Assembly: GCA_022599775.1 (NCBI GenBank)
Contig: JAHZLQ010000065.1
Span: forward strand, 1-64,000
Direction: 5' to 3'
Length of the DNA: 64,000 nt
DNA from: Gammaproteobacteria bacterium
Lineage (GTDB): Bacteria > Pseudomonadota > Gammaproteobacteria > Nevskiales > Nevskiaceae
Part shown: positions 10,104 through 18,987 of the stretch, one piece after another
Position numbering within the stretch: the first letter of the stretch is position 1
Layout of the letters: every line of letters starts with the position of its first letter
Notes under the pieces: generated by a model
What the model was told of the DNA's origin: nothing
Database searches by the model: none
What the model saw: only the letters and a program-made list of their open reading frames with translations
Position numbers and translations under genes: made by a program

Positions 10104-11447
10104 ATGTCCTCCAAGCGCCTGTACATCAAGACTTTCGGCTGTCAGATGAACGACTACGATTCGACCAAGATGGCCGACGTACTCGCGAAATCGCATGGCT
10201 ACGAACGCACCCTGGTCGCCGAGGAGGCGGATCTGCTGCTGCTCAACACCTGTTCGGTGCGCGAGAAGGCGCAGGAGAAGGTGTTTTCGGAACTGGGCCG
10301 CTGGCGCGAATGGAAGGCCGCGAAGCCGGATCGCCTGATCGGCGTCGGCGGTTGCGTCGCCTCTCAGGAAGGCGAGGCGATCGCGAAGCGCGAACCGCTG
10401 GTGGATGTGATCTTCGGGCCGCAGACCCTGCACCGGCTGCCGCAGCTGATCGATCGGGCCGGTGCCGATGGCCGCACCGCGGTCGACATCAGCTTTCCGG
10501 AGATCGAGAAGTTCGACCGCCTGCCGGAACCGCGCGCTGATGGTCCCACGGCCTTCGTCTCGATCATGGAAGGCTGCTCCAAGTACTGCACGTTCTGCGT
10601 GGTGCCGTACACGCGCGGCGAGGAAGTGTCGCGGCCGATGGAGGATGTGCTGGTCGAATGCGTGCGCCTGGTCGAACAGGGCGTGCGTGAAATCACCCTG
10701 TTGGGTCAGAACGTCAATGCTTATCGCGGCGCCGCGCCGGGCGGCGAGGTCTGCGATCTGGCCCTGCTGATCCGCTATCTTGACCGGCTCGACGGCCTCG
10801 AACGCATTCGCTTTACGACCTCGCACCCATTGGAATTCTCGGACAGCCTGATCGAGGCCTTCGCCGAGGTGCCCAAGCTCGCGAGCTATCTGCACCTTCC
10901 CGTGCAATCGGGTTCCGACCGCATCCTCGGCATGATGAAGCGCAATCACCGTCGCGAGGTCTACATCGACAAGATCCGCCGGATTCGCGAGGCGCGACCC
11001 GACATCTCGCTGTCCTCGGATTTCATCGTCGGCTTTCCGACCGAGAGCGACGAGGACTTCATGCAGACCATGGACCTGATCGGCGAAGTGGCTTGCGACG
11101 CCGCCTATTCCTTCGTTTACAGCCCGCGTCCCGGCACGCCGGCCGCCAATCTGTACGACGGCGTGTCCGCCGAGACCAAGGCGCGTCGCCTGGAAATTCT
11201 GCAGGCGCGCGTGCGCCAGCTGTCGGACGCGTTCTGCCAGCGTCAGATCGGCCTGACCCAGTCGGTGCTGGTGGAGCGGCCGTCCAGGCGTGGCAATGGC
11301 CAGATCGCCGGCCGCACCTCGCACAACCGCTGGGTCAATTTCGATGGACCGGAGAGTCTGATCGGCCAGTTCGTGGACGTGGTGATCACCGAGGCCATGC
11401 CGAACTCCCTGCGTGGCCGCCTCGCTGACGAGCGCGCCGCCGCGTGA
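10104..11447 (+). CDS. miaB: tRNA-2-methylthio-N6-dimethylallyladenosine synthase
   Basis: MiaB is a radical-SAM methylthiotransferase that adds a 2-methylthio group to i6A37 of tRNAs. The 447-residue protein has the N-terminal cluster-binding part (Cys13 in TFGCQMND, then the cysteines in NTCSVRE and GGCVAS). The radical-SAM motif CSKYCTFC is at 158-165, and a TRAM-like RNA-binding end completes it. Length and order agree with the family. It opens a run of four tightly packed genes (phoH, ybeY, corC) with overlapping ends, an arrangement conserved in Gammaproteobacteria. Confidence 0.97.
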
Positions 11448-12481
11448 GTCCCGCCACCACCAAGCCGCGCAGCCTTGACATGGTGCTGGAGCCGGACGAT
11501 TCGCAACGCTTGTCGAACCTGTCCGGCCCGTTCGATGCGCATCTGCGCCAGATCGAACTGCGCCTTGGCATCGAAATCCGCAATCGCGGCAATCGTTTCC
11601 GTCTGCTCGGCCCGGAAACCGAAATCGCGCGCGGCGAAGACGTGCTGCGTGCGCTCTACCAGCAGAGCGACGACGACGAAACCACGCTGACCACCGAGCA
11701 CGTGCATCTGGCGTTGTCCGAGGCGACCGCGGGCGAGGTCGTGCAGGCGCGCAGAACCGAGGCCGTGCCCGGCGCCGAAGGCGAGGTGGTGATCCGCACC
11801 AAGCGCGGCGTGGTGCGCGGCCGCACGCCACAGCAGAAGGCCTATCTCAAGGCGATTTCCGAAAACGATTTGTCGTTCGGCATCGGCCCGGCCGGCACCG
11901 GCAAGACCTACCTGGCCGTGGCCAGCGCCGTCAATGCGTTGGAACGTGATCGCGTGCGCCGCATCGTGCTGACGCGCCCCGCCGTGGAGGCCGGCGAGAA
12001 GCTCGGATTCCTGCCCGGCGACATGGCGCAGAAGGTCGATCCCTATCTGCGACCGCTGTACGACGCCCTGTACGAGATGATCGGCTTCGAGCGGGTCGCG
12101 CGGCTGATCGAACGCGCCGTGATCGAGGTTGCGCCGCTGGCTTTCATGCGCGGACGCACGCTCAATGAATCCTTCGTGATTCTGGACGAGGCGCAGAACA
12201 CCAGCGTCGAGCAGATGAAGATGTTTCTGACGCGTATCGGTTTCGGCAGCGTTGCCGTGGTCAACGGTGACACCACCCAGATCGACCTGCCCAAGCACAT
12301 TCGCTCCGGCCTCAAGCACGCCAGCGAAGTGCTCGACAAGGTGCCGGGTGTGAGCTTCACTTATTTCCGCAAGGAAGACGTGGTGCGCCACCCTCTGGTG
12401 CAGGCCATCGTCGAAGCCTACGAGCAGCACGACCTCGCGCAGACCGAAGGGTCGGGCAACGGCCGGGGTGGCGCCGCTTGA
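11444..12481 (+). CDS. ybeZ: PhoH-like ATPase (YbeZ)
   Basis: The 345-residue protein has a PhoH domain with Walker A GPAGTGKT (148-155) and the Walker B-like FVILDEAQN segment. A KH-like N-terminal part precedes it. In E. coli the protein partners YbeY and has been linked to RNA metabolism. The start overlaps the miaB stop by four bases and its own stop overlaps the ybeY start, so the genes are coupled. Confidence 0.94.
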
Positions 12482-12939
12482 TCGAGGACATCGTGGTGCA
12501 GCGCCGTGTGGCGCCGCTCGGCGTCCCGGCACCGGCCAGCCTGCGTGCCTGGGCCGCCGCCGCGCGCGAGGATGCGGCCGGCGAGATCACGCTGCGGCTG
12601 GTCGACGCCGACGAGAGCCGCGAACTCAACCGCGATTACCGCGGCAAGGACAAGCCCACCAACGTGCTATCGTTTCTGGCCGAAAGCCCGATTCCCGGGG
12701 AATGCATGCTGGGCGATATCGTGATCTGCGCGCCTGTGGTGGCTGCCGAAGCAGCCGAGCAGGGCAAACCGCAACGAGCCCATTGGGCGCACATGGTGGT
12801 GCACGGTGTCTTGCATCTGCGAGGCTACGACCATATCGAGGAGCAGGACGCAGAGGTGATGGAAGCGCGTGAATGCGCGATCCTTGCGTCCTGTGGTTTC
12901 CCGGACCCTTACAACACGCGAAATGAGCGACGATCATAG
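12478..12939 (+). CDS. ybeY: endoribonuclease YbeY (16S rRNA maturation)
   Basis: YbeY is a zinc metalloendoribonuclease needed for 16S rRNA 3' processing and ribosome quality control. The 153-residue protein carries the signature [11 protein letters not shown] with metal ligands His109, His113 and His119. I take the TTG at 12478, which overlaps the phoH stop (TTGA). The residues it adds ([11 protein letters not shown]) line up with the beta-strand that begins other YbeY proteins. GTG 12493 is a shorter alternative. Confidence 0.94.
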
Positions 12940-13774
12940 TAGCCGCCCTCCCGACAACGGGGGGGGCAACTGGTTCCGCAGACTGGGCAAGAGCCTGGCC
13001 GGCGGACCGCGCAATCTGACGGACTTCCTCGAAGTTCTGGCCGAGGCGCAGGAGCAGCAGCTGCTCGACGCCGATGCCGTTTCGATGATCCAGGGCGTGC
13101 TCGAAACCGCCGAGACCCAGGTTCGCGACATCATGGTGCCGCGCGCACAGATGGTGGTCGTGGAGAGCGACTGGTCTCTGGACAAGATTCTGGACACCGT
13201 GGTCGAGTCCGGTCACTCGCGTTTCCCGGTGGTCGGTGATTCGCGCGATCAGGTCTCCGGCATCCTGCTGGCCAAGGATCTGCTGCGCTATTCGAAATCC
13301 GAGGCGCAGCCCGCGTTCAGTCTGGAATCGCTGGTCAGACCGGCGGTGTTCGTGCCCGAGTCCAAGCGCGTCAACATGCTGCTCAAGGATTTTCGCGGCA
13401 GTCGCAATCACATGGCGATCGTGGTCGACGAGTACGGCGGCGTCGCCGGCCTGGTCACGATCGAGGACGTGATCGAGCAGATCGTCGGCGATATCGACGA
13501 CGAATACGACGAATCCGAAGGCGCGCTGATTCTCAAGCAGGACGAGCGGCGCTTTCTGGTCAACGGCCTGACGCCGATCGAGGAATTCAACGAATACTTC
13601 GAAACCGATTTCTCGGACGAGGAATTCGATACCGTGGGCGGCCTGGTGATTCATCGATTCGGCCACATGCCGCGACGTGGCGAAGCCGTCAAACTCGGGA
13701 AATTCCAGTTCAATGTGCAGCGCGCGGACAGTCGTCGTGTGCATCTGCTCCAGGTCACCCTGGCGGCGGAATAG
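12923..13774 (+). CDS. corC: CBS-domain transporter-associated protein (CorC/YbeX)
   Basis: The 283-residue protein has two CBS domains (about 75-195), with the conserved DIMVPRAQM at the start of the first and [17 protein letters not shown] in the second. A CorC/HlyC-type C-terminal domain follows (about 205-283). In E. coli YbeX is tied to magnesium homeostasis and ribosome metabolism. The ATG at 12923 overlaps the end of ybeY by 17 bases. In E. coli and Pseudomonas the next gene is lnt, but here it is a DUF4105 protein. Confidence 0.93.
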
Positions 13775-13863
13775 CCGAGTCGGTACACGGCTTTCACGAG
13801 CGGTGATTAAACTAGTGGGATGGCACGCCGGGACGCGTGACCGCCTGTCTTCAATTCCGGGGA

Positions 13864-15111
13864 ATGGTTCTGACTTTCGGGACTCGATCGCTGTTGCGGT
13901 TGTTCGTCGCGCTCGCCTTGGGCCTGAGCGCGCTGGACGCGTCTGCGCAAACCGCGCGGCCGGACGCCAATCCGGAAATCAGCCTGATCACCTTCGGCCC
14001 CGGTGAAATCTACTGGGAGCGTTTCGGCCACAATGCGCTGCTGGTTCGTGAACGCTCGCGCGACGCGGCCACGGTCTACAACTACGGCATTTTCGACTTC
14101 AATCAGAAGAACTTCTTTCTGAATTTCGCGCGCGGCAAGATGATGTACCGCGTCGCCGAGGAACCCTACAGCCGCGCCTTGCTGCCGTACGCCTACGAGG
14201 GACGCTGGGCGGTGCAGCAGAAGCTCGCGCTCACGCCCGGACAGGCCCGCGAACTGCGTGACTTCCTCAAGTGGAACCTGCGCCCCGAGAACGTCGAATA
14301 CCACTACGACTATTTCATCGCGAACTGTTCGACCAAGGTTCGCGACGCCATCGATTCGGTGCTCGACGGCGCGCTGCGCAGCCAGCTGGAAGCCCAGCCG
14401 GCCGGTACCACGTATCGCCGCGAGGTCACCAGCCTGACGGCGGCCGAATCCTGGCTGATGCTGGGCATGGACGTGGCGCTGGGGCCGGCCGCCGATGTGC
14501 CGGTCAACGTCTGGGAAGATGCCTTCGTCCCGATGAAGCTGATGGACGCGCTGCGCGGCGTGCAGATTGACGACGGCAAGGGCGGAACCCGCCCATTGGT
14601 GGCGGAGGAAGTCTCTTTATTGCCGCAGCGTGCGGCCATCGAGTCAGCCACGCCGCCGGATCTGCGCCTGCCGTTCGCGCTGGCCGGCCTGCTGTTCGCC
14701 GCGCTGGTGCTGGGTCTGAGCTGCGTGCGCAGCCGCAAGCCGGCACGTGTTGCGTTTTCGGTACTGGCGAATGCGTACTCGCTGATCACCGGGCTGGCCG
14801 GACTGGTGCTGCTGGCGTTCTGGCTGCTGACCGACCACTGGCCGACCTGGCACAACCTCAACCTGCTGCTGTTGAACCCACTGGCCTTGATTCTGCTGCC
14901 GACCTGGGTCCGCGCCGGTTTTTCCGGCTGGCACCCATCCAGTCGCGCCTACCTGCTCGGCTGTCTGCTGGGCCTTGCGGCGCTGCTGGTTACGGTGCTC
15001 GCGGCCACGCCGCTGGCGCCGCAGCAGAACCTGCAATGGGCCTTGCTGCTGGCGCCCAGCCATGTCGTGCTGGGGTGGTGTCTTTACCGGCGGCGAGCGC
15101 AGGCCTCCTGA
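13864..15111 (+). CDS. DUF4105 / Lnb-type periplasmic domain membrane protein
   Basis: The protein has about 415 residues and a signal peptide (VLTFGTRSLLRLFVALALGL). A periplasmic DUF4105 domain (about 30-260) contains conserved RFGHNALLV (His56) and NCSTKVRD (Cys155). About five membrane segments follow (about 265-410). Pfam now names this domain after Lnb, a lipoprotein N-acyltransferase described in Bacteroides. A His and a Cys in such positions would suit a thiol acyltransferase. The gene sits directly behind corC, the usual place of lnt. An in-frame GTG at 13837 is an alternative start, but ATG 13864 starts a clean signal peptide. The function is inference from domain and position. Confidence 0.82.
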   Translation: MVLTFGTRSLLRLFVALALGLSALDASAQTARPDANPEISLITFGPGEIYWERFGHNALLVRERSRDAATVYNYGIFDFNQKNFFLNFARGKMMYRVAEEPYSRALLPYAYEGRWAVQQKLALTPGQARELRDFLKWNLRPENVEYHYDYFIANCSTKVRDAIDSVLDGALRSQLEAQPAGTTYRREVTSLTAAESWLMLGMDVALGPAADVPVNVWEDAFVPMKLMDALRGVQIDDGKGGTRPLVAEEVSLLPQRAAIESATPPDLRLPFALAGLLFAALVLGLSCVRSRKPARVAFSVLANAYSLITGLAGLVLLAFWLLTDHWPTWHNLNLLLLNPLALILLPTWVRAGFSGWHPSSRAYLLGCLLGLAALLVTVLAATPLAPQQNLQWALLLAPSHVVLGWCLYRRRAQAS

Positions 15112-15200: not shown

Positions 15201-16922
15201 ATGCGCTCGATTCTTGTCGCGGCCGGACTGGCCACCATCGTATTGGCGGCCGCCTGCGGCACGCCGCGTGAGCCGCAGCGGACTGCGGAGACGCAGACGC
15301 CACCGGTCGTCGCGCCCAAGCCGCATCCCGAAGCGGCCGACGCGGTCGCTCAGATCATGCTGGAGCGTGCCCAGGCCAGCGGCGCCCAGCAGAAGTACGC
15401 GCTGCGTTCGCAGATGATGGCGCCGGTGTCGGTCCTGCCGAACCCGCGGCCCTTGCCGCCGATGAGCCCCGAAGAGCGCGAACGCTACGCCCATCTGGCG
15501 CAGAACCCGGTGCACGCCGTCGGTGAAGACCCGGTGTCCACCTTCTCGGCCGATGTGGATACCGGCAGCTATGCCAATCTGCGCCGCTTCCTGCAGCAAG
15601 GACGTCTGCCGCCGGAAGATGCGGTGCGCGTCGAGGAATTCATCAACGCCTTCGACTACGCCTATCCGGCCCCTGGCGGCACCGCGTCGAGCGCCCCGTT
15701 TTCGGTGCAGACCGAAGTGGCGCCGACGCCGTGGAACGCGAACACCTTGCTGATGCGTGTCGGCATTCAGGGCTGGTTGCCCGCGGGGCCGCTGCCACCG
15801 TCCAATCTGGTGTTCCTGGTCGATGTCTCGGGCTCGATGCAGGCGCAGGACAAGCTGCCGCTGCTGCAATCCTCGCTGCGTCTGCTGGTCGGACAACTGC
15901 GCGCCGAGGACCGCATCAGCTTGGTCACGTATGCCTCGGGTGTGCGCACGGTGCTGGAGCCGACGCCCGGCGATCAGCGCGCGACGATCCTCGCGGCGAT
16001 CGACGATCTGCGCGCCGGCGGTTCGACCAACGGCGGCGACGGCATCCGCCGCGCCTACGACGCCGCGCATCAGGCCCGGATCAGCGATGGCATCAACCGC
16101 ATCCTGCTGTGCACCGACGGCGACTTCAACGTCGGCACCGTCGACTTCGAACAGCTCAAGGATCGGGTGGAACGCGAGCGCGCCGGTGGCGTGGCACTGT
16201 CCACTTTCGGTTTCGGGCAGGGCAACTACAACGATCAGTTGATGGAACAGCTCGCCGATGCCGGCAATGGCAACTACGGCTACATCGACACCTTGATGGA
16301 GGCGCAGAAGCTGTTCGTGCGCAACCGCGCGGCCACGCTGCGCACCATCGCCAAGGACGTGAAGATCCAGGTCGAATTCAATCCGGCGGTGGTCGCCGAG
16401 TACCGGCTGATCGGCTACGAGAACCGCGCCCTGGCGCGCGAGGATTTCGCGAATGACAAGGTGGATGCCGGCGAGATCGGTGCCGGCCACAGCGTGACCG
16501 CGCTGTATGAAATCGCCCTGCTCGGTTCCGGTGGGCAACGCCTGGAACCGCTGCGCTACCAGCCCGAGGCCACAGCCGCGCCGCATGGCGGTGAACTGGC
16601 CCTGGTGCGCCTGCGTTACAAGGCGCCGGACGGCGAGGTCTCGAAACTGATCGAACGGCCGGTGCGTCGCGACGAGGTGCTGTCCGATTTCGATCAGGCC
16701 AGCGAATCGACACGCTGGGCGGCGTCCATCGCGGCCTTCGGGCAGTCGCTGCGCGGCGGCAAGTACCTCGGACGCTACGGTTACCCGGAGATTCGCGCGC
16801 TGGCTGCGCACAGCCGCGGTGATGATCCGTATGGCGACCGTGCGGAACTGCTTAAACTGGTCGATCTGGCGCAGTCTCTGGCGCAGCACACGACCGGAAC
16901 GGATGTCGCAAGCGGACACTGA
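15201..16922 (+). CDS. von Willebrand factor A lipoprotein (YfbK-like)
   Basis: The 573-residue product starts with a lipoprotein signal (LAAAC, Cys19). It has a YfbK-type N-terminal region containing DPVSTFSADVDTGSYANLRR, then a VWA domain with the metal-site motif DVSGS at 208-212. A DUF3520-type C-terminal region follows. VWA domains mediate metal-dependent protein binding; this one faces the periplasm. GGAG at 15188-15191 sits 9 bases before the ATG. The end overlaps the next gene, a sigma factor, by 20 bases, so the two are probably co-expressed. Confidence 0.88.
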   Translation: MRSILVAAGLATIVLAAACGTPREPQRTAETQTPPVVAPKPHPEAADAVAQIMLERAQASGAQQKYALRSQMMAPVSVLPNPRPLPPMSPEERERYAHLAQNPVHAVGEDPVSTFSADVDTGSYANLRRFLQQGRLPPEDAVRVEEFINAFDYAYPAPGGTASSAPFSVQTEVAPTPWNANTLLMRVGIQGWLPAGPLPPSNLVFLVDVSGSMQAQDKLPLLQSSLRLLVGQLRAEDRISLVTYASGVRTVLEPTPGDQRATILAAIDDLRAGGSTNGGDGIRRAYDAAHQARISDGINRILLCTDGDFNVGTVDFEQLKDRVERERAGGVALSTFGFGQGNYNDQLMEQLADAGNGNYGYIDTLMEAQKLFVRNRAATLRTIAKDVKIQVEFNPAVVAEYRLIGYENRALAREDFANDKVDAGEIGAGHSVTALYEIALLGSGGQRLEPLRYQPEATAAPHGGELALVRLRYKAPDGEVSKLIERPVRRDEVLSDFDQASESTRWAASIAAFGQSLRGGKYLGRYGYPEIRALAAHSRGDDPYGDRAELLKLVDLAQSLAQHTTGTDVASGH

Positions 16923-17451
16923 CGAAACCCTGATGCAGGCCTACGGCGCCGGCGACGCGGACGCGTTCCGGCGCCTCTACCTGCGCCATGCCGATCCGGT
17001 GTACCGCTACTGCCTGCGTGCCAGCGGTTCCACCGCGAACGCCGCCGAGTTCGCGCAGGACGTGTGGACGCGTGTGATCGAATCCCGGCAACGCTACACA
17101 CCGACTGCGGGATTCAAGACCTGGCTGTACCGCATTGCCCACAATCGCATGGTCGACCACTGGCGCACACAGGCGACGCGCGGCGGCAGCGAGACTTTGG
17201 CCGACGAACAGGCCGATCCCTCGGCATCTCCTGAACGCCGTGCCGCCGCCGAGGACTGCGTGGCTCGTCTGCAAGTCGAACTCGCTGGCTTGCCATTCGA
17301 ACAGTGCGAGCTGATCGTGCTGCGCGAAGAGGGCGAACTGACGCTGGAGCAGATGGCGGGGCTGCAGGGCGTGGGTCGCGAAACCGTCAAGAGCCGGCTG
17401 CGCTACGCGCTGGCCAAGCTGAAGGAGGCCTTGCATGACTGCCTCGAATGA
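16903..17451 (+). CDS. sigma-70 family RNA polymerase sigma factor (ECF type)
   Basis: The 182-residue protein has region 2 (about 10-85, with FRRLYLRHADPVYRYC and FKTWLYRIAHNRMVDHWR) and region 4 (about 118-175, a helix-turn-helix around LEQMAGLQGVGRETVKSRLR). These belong to extracytoplasmic-function sigma factors. It starts inside the vWA gene and overlaps the following membrane protein gene by 17 bases. That protein is the likely anti-sigma factor. I cannot identify the target promoters. Confidence 0.9.
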   Translation: MSQADTDETLMQAYGAGDADAFRRLYLRHADPVYRYCLRASGSTANAAEFAQDVWTRVIESRQRYTPTAGFKTWLYRIAHNRMVDHWRTQATRGGSETLADEQADPSASPERRAAAEDCVARLQVELAGLPFEQCELIVLREEGELTLEQMAGLQGVGRETVKSRLRYALAKLKEALHDCLE

Positions 17452-18295
17452 GCGCGATCCCGATCGCGAACTAGATGACTATCTGGCGGGTCGCCATGCG
17501 CTGTCGCGTCTCTACGCGCAGGCGCGGGTCGAGCGTCCCACCGGGCATGACGCAGCAATACTCGCCAAGGCTGTCGCGGCGACGCGGGCCGGCACACCCA
17601 AGCGTGGCGGGCGCCGCTGGCCGCCGGTCCTGGCCGTGGCCGCGACGATGGTGCTCGGCGTGGCCGTCGGCTGGAATCTGCTGCAGGCACCGGGGACGGA
17701 CGTCAGCGCCGATTCCGACAGTGCGATGGGATCGGCGCCATTGTCCGCGGGCTCGGCCGCGCCGTCCGCATCCGGCGACATCGCGGCCTTGGGTTCGCAG
17801 AAGGCCACCGAAGCCGCCGAAGCCATACTGGCCGAGGATGCGCGGCAACAGCGTCTTGCGCAAAAGCAGGAGTCCGCGCGCGCTGCGCAGCCACGTGCCC
17901 AGGCCTTCGCGGCGCCACGCTCGGTGCCCAGCCCGAACCCGCAGATGGCCGCACCGCAGGCTCGGGCCGCGCCGCCGCCGCGGGGGGCCGCCAATCCCTC
18001 GCCGCCGCTGATTTCCGACGACCCGCAGATTCAGCGGCTGATCGACCAGGTGCGCGAACTGCCGGACGGAACGATTCGTCTCGACGGCAAAAGCCTGTCC
18101 GGCTCGGCGCTGGCCGAGGTCTGGACGCAGCGCTGGGCGCGTTCCGGCACGCGTTGCTCACTGGCTGCGGATTTCGTGGAATTTTGTGCGCTGCCGGACT
18201 ACGAGGATGCACAGATCGAGCAGGATGGAGAACTTCAGCCCCTGCGCCCGGTTCTACATCGCTGGATTCGCAACATGGAACATCCGCTGAGATGA
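17435..18295 (+). CDS. single-pass membrane protein, probable anti-sigma factor
   Basis: The 286-residue protein has a short cytoplasmic N-terminus (1-60, with DRELDDYLAGRHALSRLYAQ). One membrane segment (about 62-83) follows. Then comes a long Ala/Pro/Gln-rich linker (about 95-200) and a periplasmic end with two cysteines (CSLAADFVEFC). This topology and its place directly behind an ECF sigma gene suggest an anti-sigma factor. It lacks the zinc HxxxCxxC motif of many of them and I do not recognise a named family. The role is inferred from position and topology. Confidence 0.6.
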   Translation: MTASNERDPDRELDDYLAGRHALSRLYAQARVERPTGHDAAILAKAVAATRAGTPKRGGRRWPPVLAVAATMVLGVAVGWNLLQAPGTDVSADSDSAMGSAPLSAGSAAPSASGDIAALGSQKATEAAEAILAEDARQQRLAQKQESARAAQPRAQAFAAPRSVPSPNPQMAAPQARAAPPPRGAANPSPPLISDDPQIQRLIDQVRELPDGTIRLDGKSLSGSALAEVWTQRWARSGTRCSLAADFVEFCALPDYEDAQIEQDGELQPLRPVLHRWIRNMEHPLR

Positions 18296-18987
18296 GCACG
18301 TCACGCGCAACCCCGTACTTCGACGAAGCCACTTTCAAGTTTCTGCGACAGCTTTCGCGCAACAACAACCGCGAGTGGTTCACTGCGAACAAGGCACGCT
18401 ATGAGGCGTCCGTGCGCGGCCCGGCGCTGGCGCTGATCACCGATCTCGCCGAGCCCCTGGCCGCAATCAGCCCGAAGTTCCGCGCCGTGCCCAAGGCCGT
18501 GGGCGGCTCGCTGTTCAGGATTCAGCGCGACACCCGCTTTTCCAACAACAAGCTGCCGTACAAGACCTGGATCGGCCTGCGCTTTTTCCACGAACGCGGC
18601 CGTGATGGCGATGCGCCGCTGTTCTATCTGCACATCGAACCGGGCAACAGCTTCGTCGGCGGCGGACTGTGGCATCCGCAGACGGCGGCACTGCGCAAGA
18701 TCCGCGACTACCTGATCGCCAATCCGATGAGCTGGAAGGCCTTGTGCGCGCAGGCGGCGGAACGGGGCTTCGCCTGGGGCGGAGAATCACTGCTGCGTGC
18801 ACCGCGCGGTTACGAGCCGGACCACGAACTGATCGAGCATCTCAAGCGCAAGGATTTCGTGCTGTCACGGGAACTTTCCGATGACGAGGTTCTGTCGGAT
18901 CAGTTCGGCCGCACGATCATTGCCGCATTCGATCAGGTGGCGCCATTGGTCGACTGGCTGTGCGACGCAGTGGAGATCGATTTCTAA
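18292..18987 (+). CDS. DUF2461 domain protein
   Basis: The 231-residue cytoplasmic protein fits the DUF2461 (TIGR02453) family, recognisable from FLRQLSRNNNREWFTANKARY at the N-terminus, FRIQRDTRFSNNKLPYKTW in the middle and SFVGGGLWHP. The function of the family is unknown. The ATG at 18292 overlaps the stop of the upstream membrane protein gene (ATGA), so it may be translated from the same message as the sigma-factor genes. Confidence 0.88.
   Translation: MSTSRATPYFDEATFKFLRQLSRNNNREWFTANKARYEASVRGPALALITDLAEPLAAISPKFRAVPKAVGGSLFRIQRDTRFSNNKLPYKTWIGLRFFHERGRDGDAPLFYLHIEPGNSFVGGGLWHPQTAALRKIRDYLIANPMSWKALCAQAAERGFAWGGESLLRAPRGYEPDHELIEHLKRKDFVLSRELSDDEVLSDQFGRTIIAAFDQVAPLVDWLCDAVEIDF

Follow-up and report, generated by a model that had tools for sequence, protein, structure and literature searches.

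The gene examined here lies in a 64,000-nucleotide stretch of a Nevskiaceae genome (Gammaproteobacteria; assembly GCA_022599775.1, contig JAHZLQ010000065.1, positions 1 to 64,000), hereafter called the window. The genes miaB, phoH, ybeY, and corC are followed immediately by a 415-amino-acid open reading frame (ORF) that begins with ATG at position 13864, and an alternative GTG start at 13837 would give a product of 424 amino acids (Table 1). Lnt is believed to attach the third fatty chain of lipoproteins. It is essential in E. coli, and among proteobacteria at large it is seen as the general and indispensable N-acyltransferase and as a target for antibiotics. The original prediction was that the fifth gene of this block encodes a DUF4105 (Lnb-type) protein that replaces Lnt or modifies lipoproteins in another way. 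Both Pfam Lnb domains were found in the product, and the four upstream genes were confirmed by Pfam. Based on sequence comparisons, we consider the product very likely to be an Lnb-type lipoprotein N-acyltransferase and to have replaced Lnt in the final step of lipoprotein maturation, at the chromosomal position of lnt itself. In Bacteroides, the enzyme that N-acylates lipoproteins is Lnb (Armbruster et al. 2024 PNAS, as reported in PMC13103446, PMC12994826, and PMC13251419).

The match to Lnb_N (PF13387) covered residues 38 to 182 with an E value of 5e-21 and 75.5 bits against a gathering threshold of 22.2, while 5TMH_Lnb (PF25221) matched residues 270 to 397 (2e-11; 44.7 bits against 25.2). 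Neither the LNT_N membrane domain nor the nitrilase domain of Lnt was detected in this protein. A conserved His and Cys occur in the permuted NlpC/P60 order as H56 and C155, numbered as originally predicted, and neither residue varies among 75 aligned relatives or among 24 Bacteroidota Lnb proteins. Across the gammaproteobacterial and Bacteroidota groups N154, Y146, R114, R185, P223, and N331 are also invariant or nearly so, and H325, N333, and P339 are strongly conserved. A profile-profile comparison (hhalign) with the 24 Bacteroidota proteins gave a full-length match across both domains (probability 100%, 358 columns). The window protein has in common with Bacteroides Lnb its domain order, the invariant His and Cys, the transmembrane H, N, N, and P residues, and a length of about 400 amino acids. 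It differs in that its group forms a distinct clade (100% local support, FastTree), in that its gene sits in the miaB-phoH-ybeY-corC block of a gammaproteobacterial host, and in scoring under the NCBIfam equivalog cut-off.

An AlphaFold model of high confidence (mean predicted local distance difference test [pLDDT] score of 93) contained one helix for the signal peptide and five more at the C terminus, in agreement with the predicted signal peptide and roughly five membrane helices. A sequence search for solved structures returned no match to the protein. In the model, residues 31 to 257 have a permuted NlpC/P60 fold, as they align with TseH (6v98) and YiiX (2if6) at Z scores of 11.3 each and with 3kw0 at 9.2; a weak similarity to H-REV107 (Z of 5.4) was not decisive. 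Permuted NlpC/P60 members act on lipids via Cys and His, and Tox-Act1, which has catalytic His and Cys residues, is the reported sister clade of DUF4105 (PMC12994826). TseH, Tox-Act1, and YiiX lack the five-helix membrane domain, however, and the first two serve as effectors of type VI secretion.

The genome containing the window (99.2% complete, 78 contigs) had no LNT_N match, and no intact lnt was recovered elsewhere in it with either LNT_N or TIGR00546. TIGR00546 gave three sub-threshold partial matches, which we rejected as Lnt; these are soluble CN-hydrolases without the Lnt membrane domain, one of them fused to an N-terminal GNAT-like part. The enzymes of the earlier steps were present (Lgt, 266 bits; LspA, 148 bits), and the product of the gene studied here was the only Lnb_N protein.

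We then compared 37 genomes of the family. Counting Lnb by Lnb_N alone misleads since long (600+ amino acids) and short (about 350 amino acids) DUF4105 proteins in the same genomes share this domain with Lnb; we instead counted Lnb by its membrane domain and by alignment over the full length. The long proteins match the new profile weakly and over the N domain only, and both kinds co-occur with Lnt. The long family (L115-L144) is found in most relatives within the family and order, with or without Lnt, and is missing from the window's genome. Counted in this way, Lnb-type proteins were present in 26 of the 37 genomes and LNT_N in 7, with no genome having both and 4 having neither. This exclusion gave Fisher p values of 2e-7 (family only) and 2e-13 (order-level outgroups included), values which overstate independence since the genomes are related.

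When fetched regions were searched with the block by tblastn, we found lnt directly 3' of corC in all seven Lnt genomes and Lnb directly 3' of corC in 25 of the 26 Lnb genomes. The remaining genome (G028) was placed via its apparent duplicate, locus L051, which has the order corC-Lnb and a protein identical in length and score. The absence of Lnt and this same-slot exchange support the predicted replacement of Lnt by Lnb, with the enzymatic activity itself inferred. No lnt remnant was seen at the Lnb-occupied slots. Short Lnt5 matches beside corC in Lnb loci were taken to be an artefact, as the query ORF extends upstream into corC in another frame. We also rejected a third solution in the four genomes that lack both enzymes (G019, G026, G029, and G034). 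They contained only corC paralogues at 26 to 30% identity and no assembled corC orthologue; the whole corC block is absent, probably through a gap in the assembly. Other families of the order have leuS and an LptE-like gene after lnt, the arrangement known from Pseudomonas (L145-L185 against L152-L159). This downstream part was not seen adjoining the slot in the window's family, whether lnt or lnb occupies it.

A tree of the flanking genes (MiaB, PhoH, YbeY, and CorC) required at least five state changes overall and at least four inside the family. It rejected a single clade of all Lnb genomes (approximately unbiased test, p-AU of 8e-8) as well as a single clade of the in-family Lnt genomes (p-AU of 2e-4), and one genus (g11) contains both Lnb and Lnt genomes. 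This implies that the swap recurred several times within the family. The in-family Lnt sequences formed one group with moderate support (92/95), and the family Lnb sequences formed nearby groups with Rhodanobacteraceae sequences interspersed. The trees are better explained by swapping between relatives, or by prolonged coexistence with later sorting, than by repeated distant import, and the exchange may have run in either direction. Recent horizontal transfer from Bacteroidota was not favoured, as the GC content and third-position GC content (GC3) of lnb are like those of the neighbouring genes and the gammaproteobacterial proteins form their own clade.

In a wider sequence search that gave 78 named loci, corC was directly upstream of Lnb in 72. 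This order was present in Nevskiaceae (Nevskia and Solimonas), Rhodanobacteraceae (Dokdonella, Rhodanobacter, and Tahibacter), Lysobacteraceae (Luteimonas and Lysobacter), and others. Among 49 of these Lnb genomes, 37 had no LNT_N match and 1 had a sub-threshold match. Across 369 evenly sampled Gammaproteobacteria, LNT_N was detected in 335 and full-length Lnb was rare (5 genomes). LNT_N was absent from 4 of these 5 genomes versus 30 of the other 364 (p = 3e-4). Taken together, we think it likely that two unrelated enzymes for a step essential in E. coli have been exchanged repeatedly at one slot in Nevskiaceae and Xanthomonadales relatives, that lipoprotein N-acylation in Gammaproteobacteria is an exchangeable module, and that many cultured species (of Solimonas, Luteimonas, Lysobacter, and Dokdonella) rely on Lnb in the absence of Lnt.

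Several observations weigh against these assignments. The window protein scored 208 bits with the NCBIfam Lnb equivalog NF051878, below the curated cut-off of 550. This cut-off appears to be tuned to Bacteroides, because no homologue in our Bacteroidota sample attained it; NF051878 matched in 26 of 99 genomes (the phylum of Cyclobacteriaceae genome G107) at 141 to 322 bits. Our literature search found no biochemical data for any gammaproteobacterial member. The 78-contig assembly may be missing a stretch, although the relatives show the same pattern. Lastly, 11 of the 49 Lnb genomes, all outside the family, had LNT_N above the cut-off, mostly in divergent proteins. Among seven of these Lnt-like proteins that we examined, one, from a Gemmatimonadota genome, was a canonical-looking Lnt; two, of about 690 amino acids and Rhodanobacteraceae type, passed TIGR00546 (186 bits) and retained the aligned E, K, and C; and four fell under the TIGR00546 cut-off. 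The exclusion of Lnb and Lnt is therefore not universal. At loci L189-L194 (Tahibacter and others of Rhodanobacteraceae type), ORFs of 830 to 870 amino acids combine LNT_N with a CN-hydrolase domain, and Lnb is also present at the corC slot; the two ORFs that we checked qualify as Lnt (TIGR00546, 186 bits) and retain the aligned E, K, and C. The canonical-looking Lnt of Gemmatimonadota genome G075 (L188, L058) accompanies an Lnb relative that does not adjoin corC.

If the window protein is an N-acyltransferase, its five helices would anchor it with the papain-like domain facing the periplasm. Activated by His56 as the base, Cys155 would attack a membrane phospholipid at an acyl ester. The resulting thioester would be resolved when the apolipoprotein accepts the acyl chain on the free alpha-amine of its S-diacylglyceryl cysteine. 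The lipid site probably owes its shape to the conserved H325, N331, and N333 at the membrane domain. Such a ping-pong reaction would resemble that of Lnt (PF20154 and CN_hydrolase), with which the protein also shares chromosomal slot and membrane anchoring. The folds, however, are unrelated, Lnt being a nitrilase with an E-K-C triad and the window protein a permuted papain with His and Cys.

Bacteria that live without N-acylation exist, so the hosts could carry diacylated lipoproteins and use this lipid-acting, papain-like enzyme on another substrate, as a phospholipase or as an acyltransferase for another amine. We regard this as improbable given the exact and repeated same-slot exchange with lnt and the full-length match to Bacteroidota Lnb, membrane domain included. 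Less probable still is that Lnb is an accessory beside a cryptic Lnt or another N-acylating enzyme. Draft assemblies may miss genes, and both the divergent Lnt-like proteins of Rhodanobacteraceae and the Gemmatimonadota Lnt described above would agree with such an arrangement, but LNT_N was found in none of the 26 family Lnb genomes, though the same model found Lnt in 335 of the sampled Gammaproteobacteria. DUF4105 was formerly viewed as an uncharacterised NlpC/P60 relative, from which one could argue that an unrelated membrane peptidase was inserted beside corC by coincidence. Its recurrence directly after corC in nearly all sampled loci of several families, and the tracking of Lnb presence with Lnt absence, leave this explanation with almost no credence.

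Repeated displacement of DUF4105 proteins by Lnt has been described in three genomic contexts (PMC12994826, 2026). That study describes the DUF4105 clade as mainly Bacteroides, and neither Gammaproteobacteria nor xanthomonads appear in its main text. Our literature search, with subscription papers mostly outside its reach, found no report of Lnb replacing Lnt in Gammaproteobacteria. While the kind of enzyme is already known, what is new is a gammaproteobacterial case that is well supported and in which exchange at the slot has recurred. A gammaproteobacterial lineage with a Bacteroides-type enzyme in place of Lnt alters the view of Lnt as a general enzyme, and culturable organisms become available for testing Lnb. 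Close relatives differing at one slot also offer a natural experiment on why cells switch enzyme, be it lipid donor, lipoprotein sorting, or inhibitor escape.

Table 1. Features of the lnb locus (window positions)
Feature	Position	Strand	Basis
Lnb-type protein, candidate lipoprotein N-acyltransferase, 415 amino acids	13864..15111	+	Pfam Lnb_N and 5TMH_Lnb above cut-offs; NCBIfam lnb 208 bits; AlphaFold2 pLDDT 93
Signal peptide, residues 1-28, putative site ASA28/Q29	13864..13947	+	By-eye sequence reading; helix 8-18 in model
Predicted periplasmic permuted NlpC/P60 domain, residues ~31-257	13954..14634	+	TseH 6v98 and YiiX 2if6 Z 11.3; 3kw0 Z 9.2
His56 codon, predicted catalytic base	14029..14031	+	Invariant in gammaproteobacterial and Bacteroidota proteins
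Cys155 codon, predicted nucleophile	14326..14328	+	Invariant in gammaproteobacterial and Bacteroidota proteins
Five transmembrane helices, residues 268-414, conserved H325, N331, N333, P339	14665..15105	+	Pfam, alignment, model
miaB	10104..11447	+	Pfam
phoH	11444..12481	+	Pfam
ybeY	12478..12939	+	Pfam
corC (ybeX), slot-marking gene	12869..13774	+	Pfam; synteny

At least four lipoproteins (LemA, the vWA protein, BamD, and TadD) had been predicted nearby. Our lipobox scan of the window recovered three candidates, at 307 (+), 15201 (+, the vWA protein), and 26990 (−). Downstream of lnb (15201 to 18300) come the vWA lipoprotein, a sigma-70-like factor, and a protein containing a single hydrophobic segment. 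The latter could be the anti-sigma factor of the sigma-70-like factor, and the three genes possibly form an envelope-stress unit. Among the compared loci, matches to the vWA and sigma genes were confined to the window's genus.
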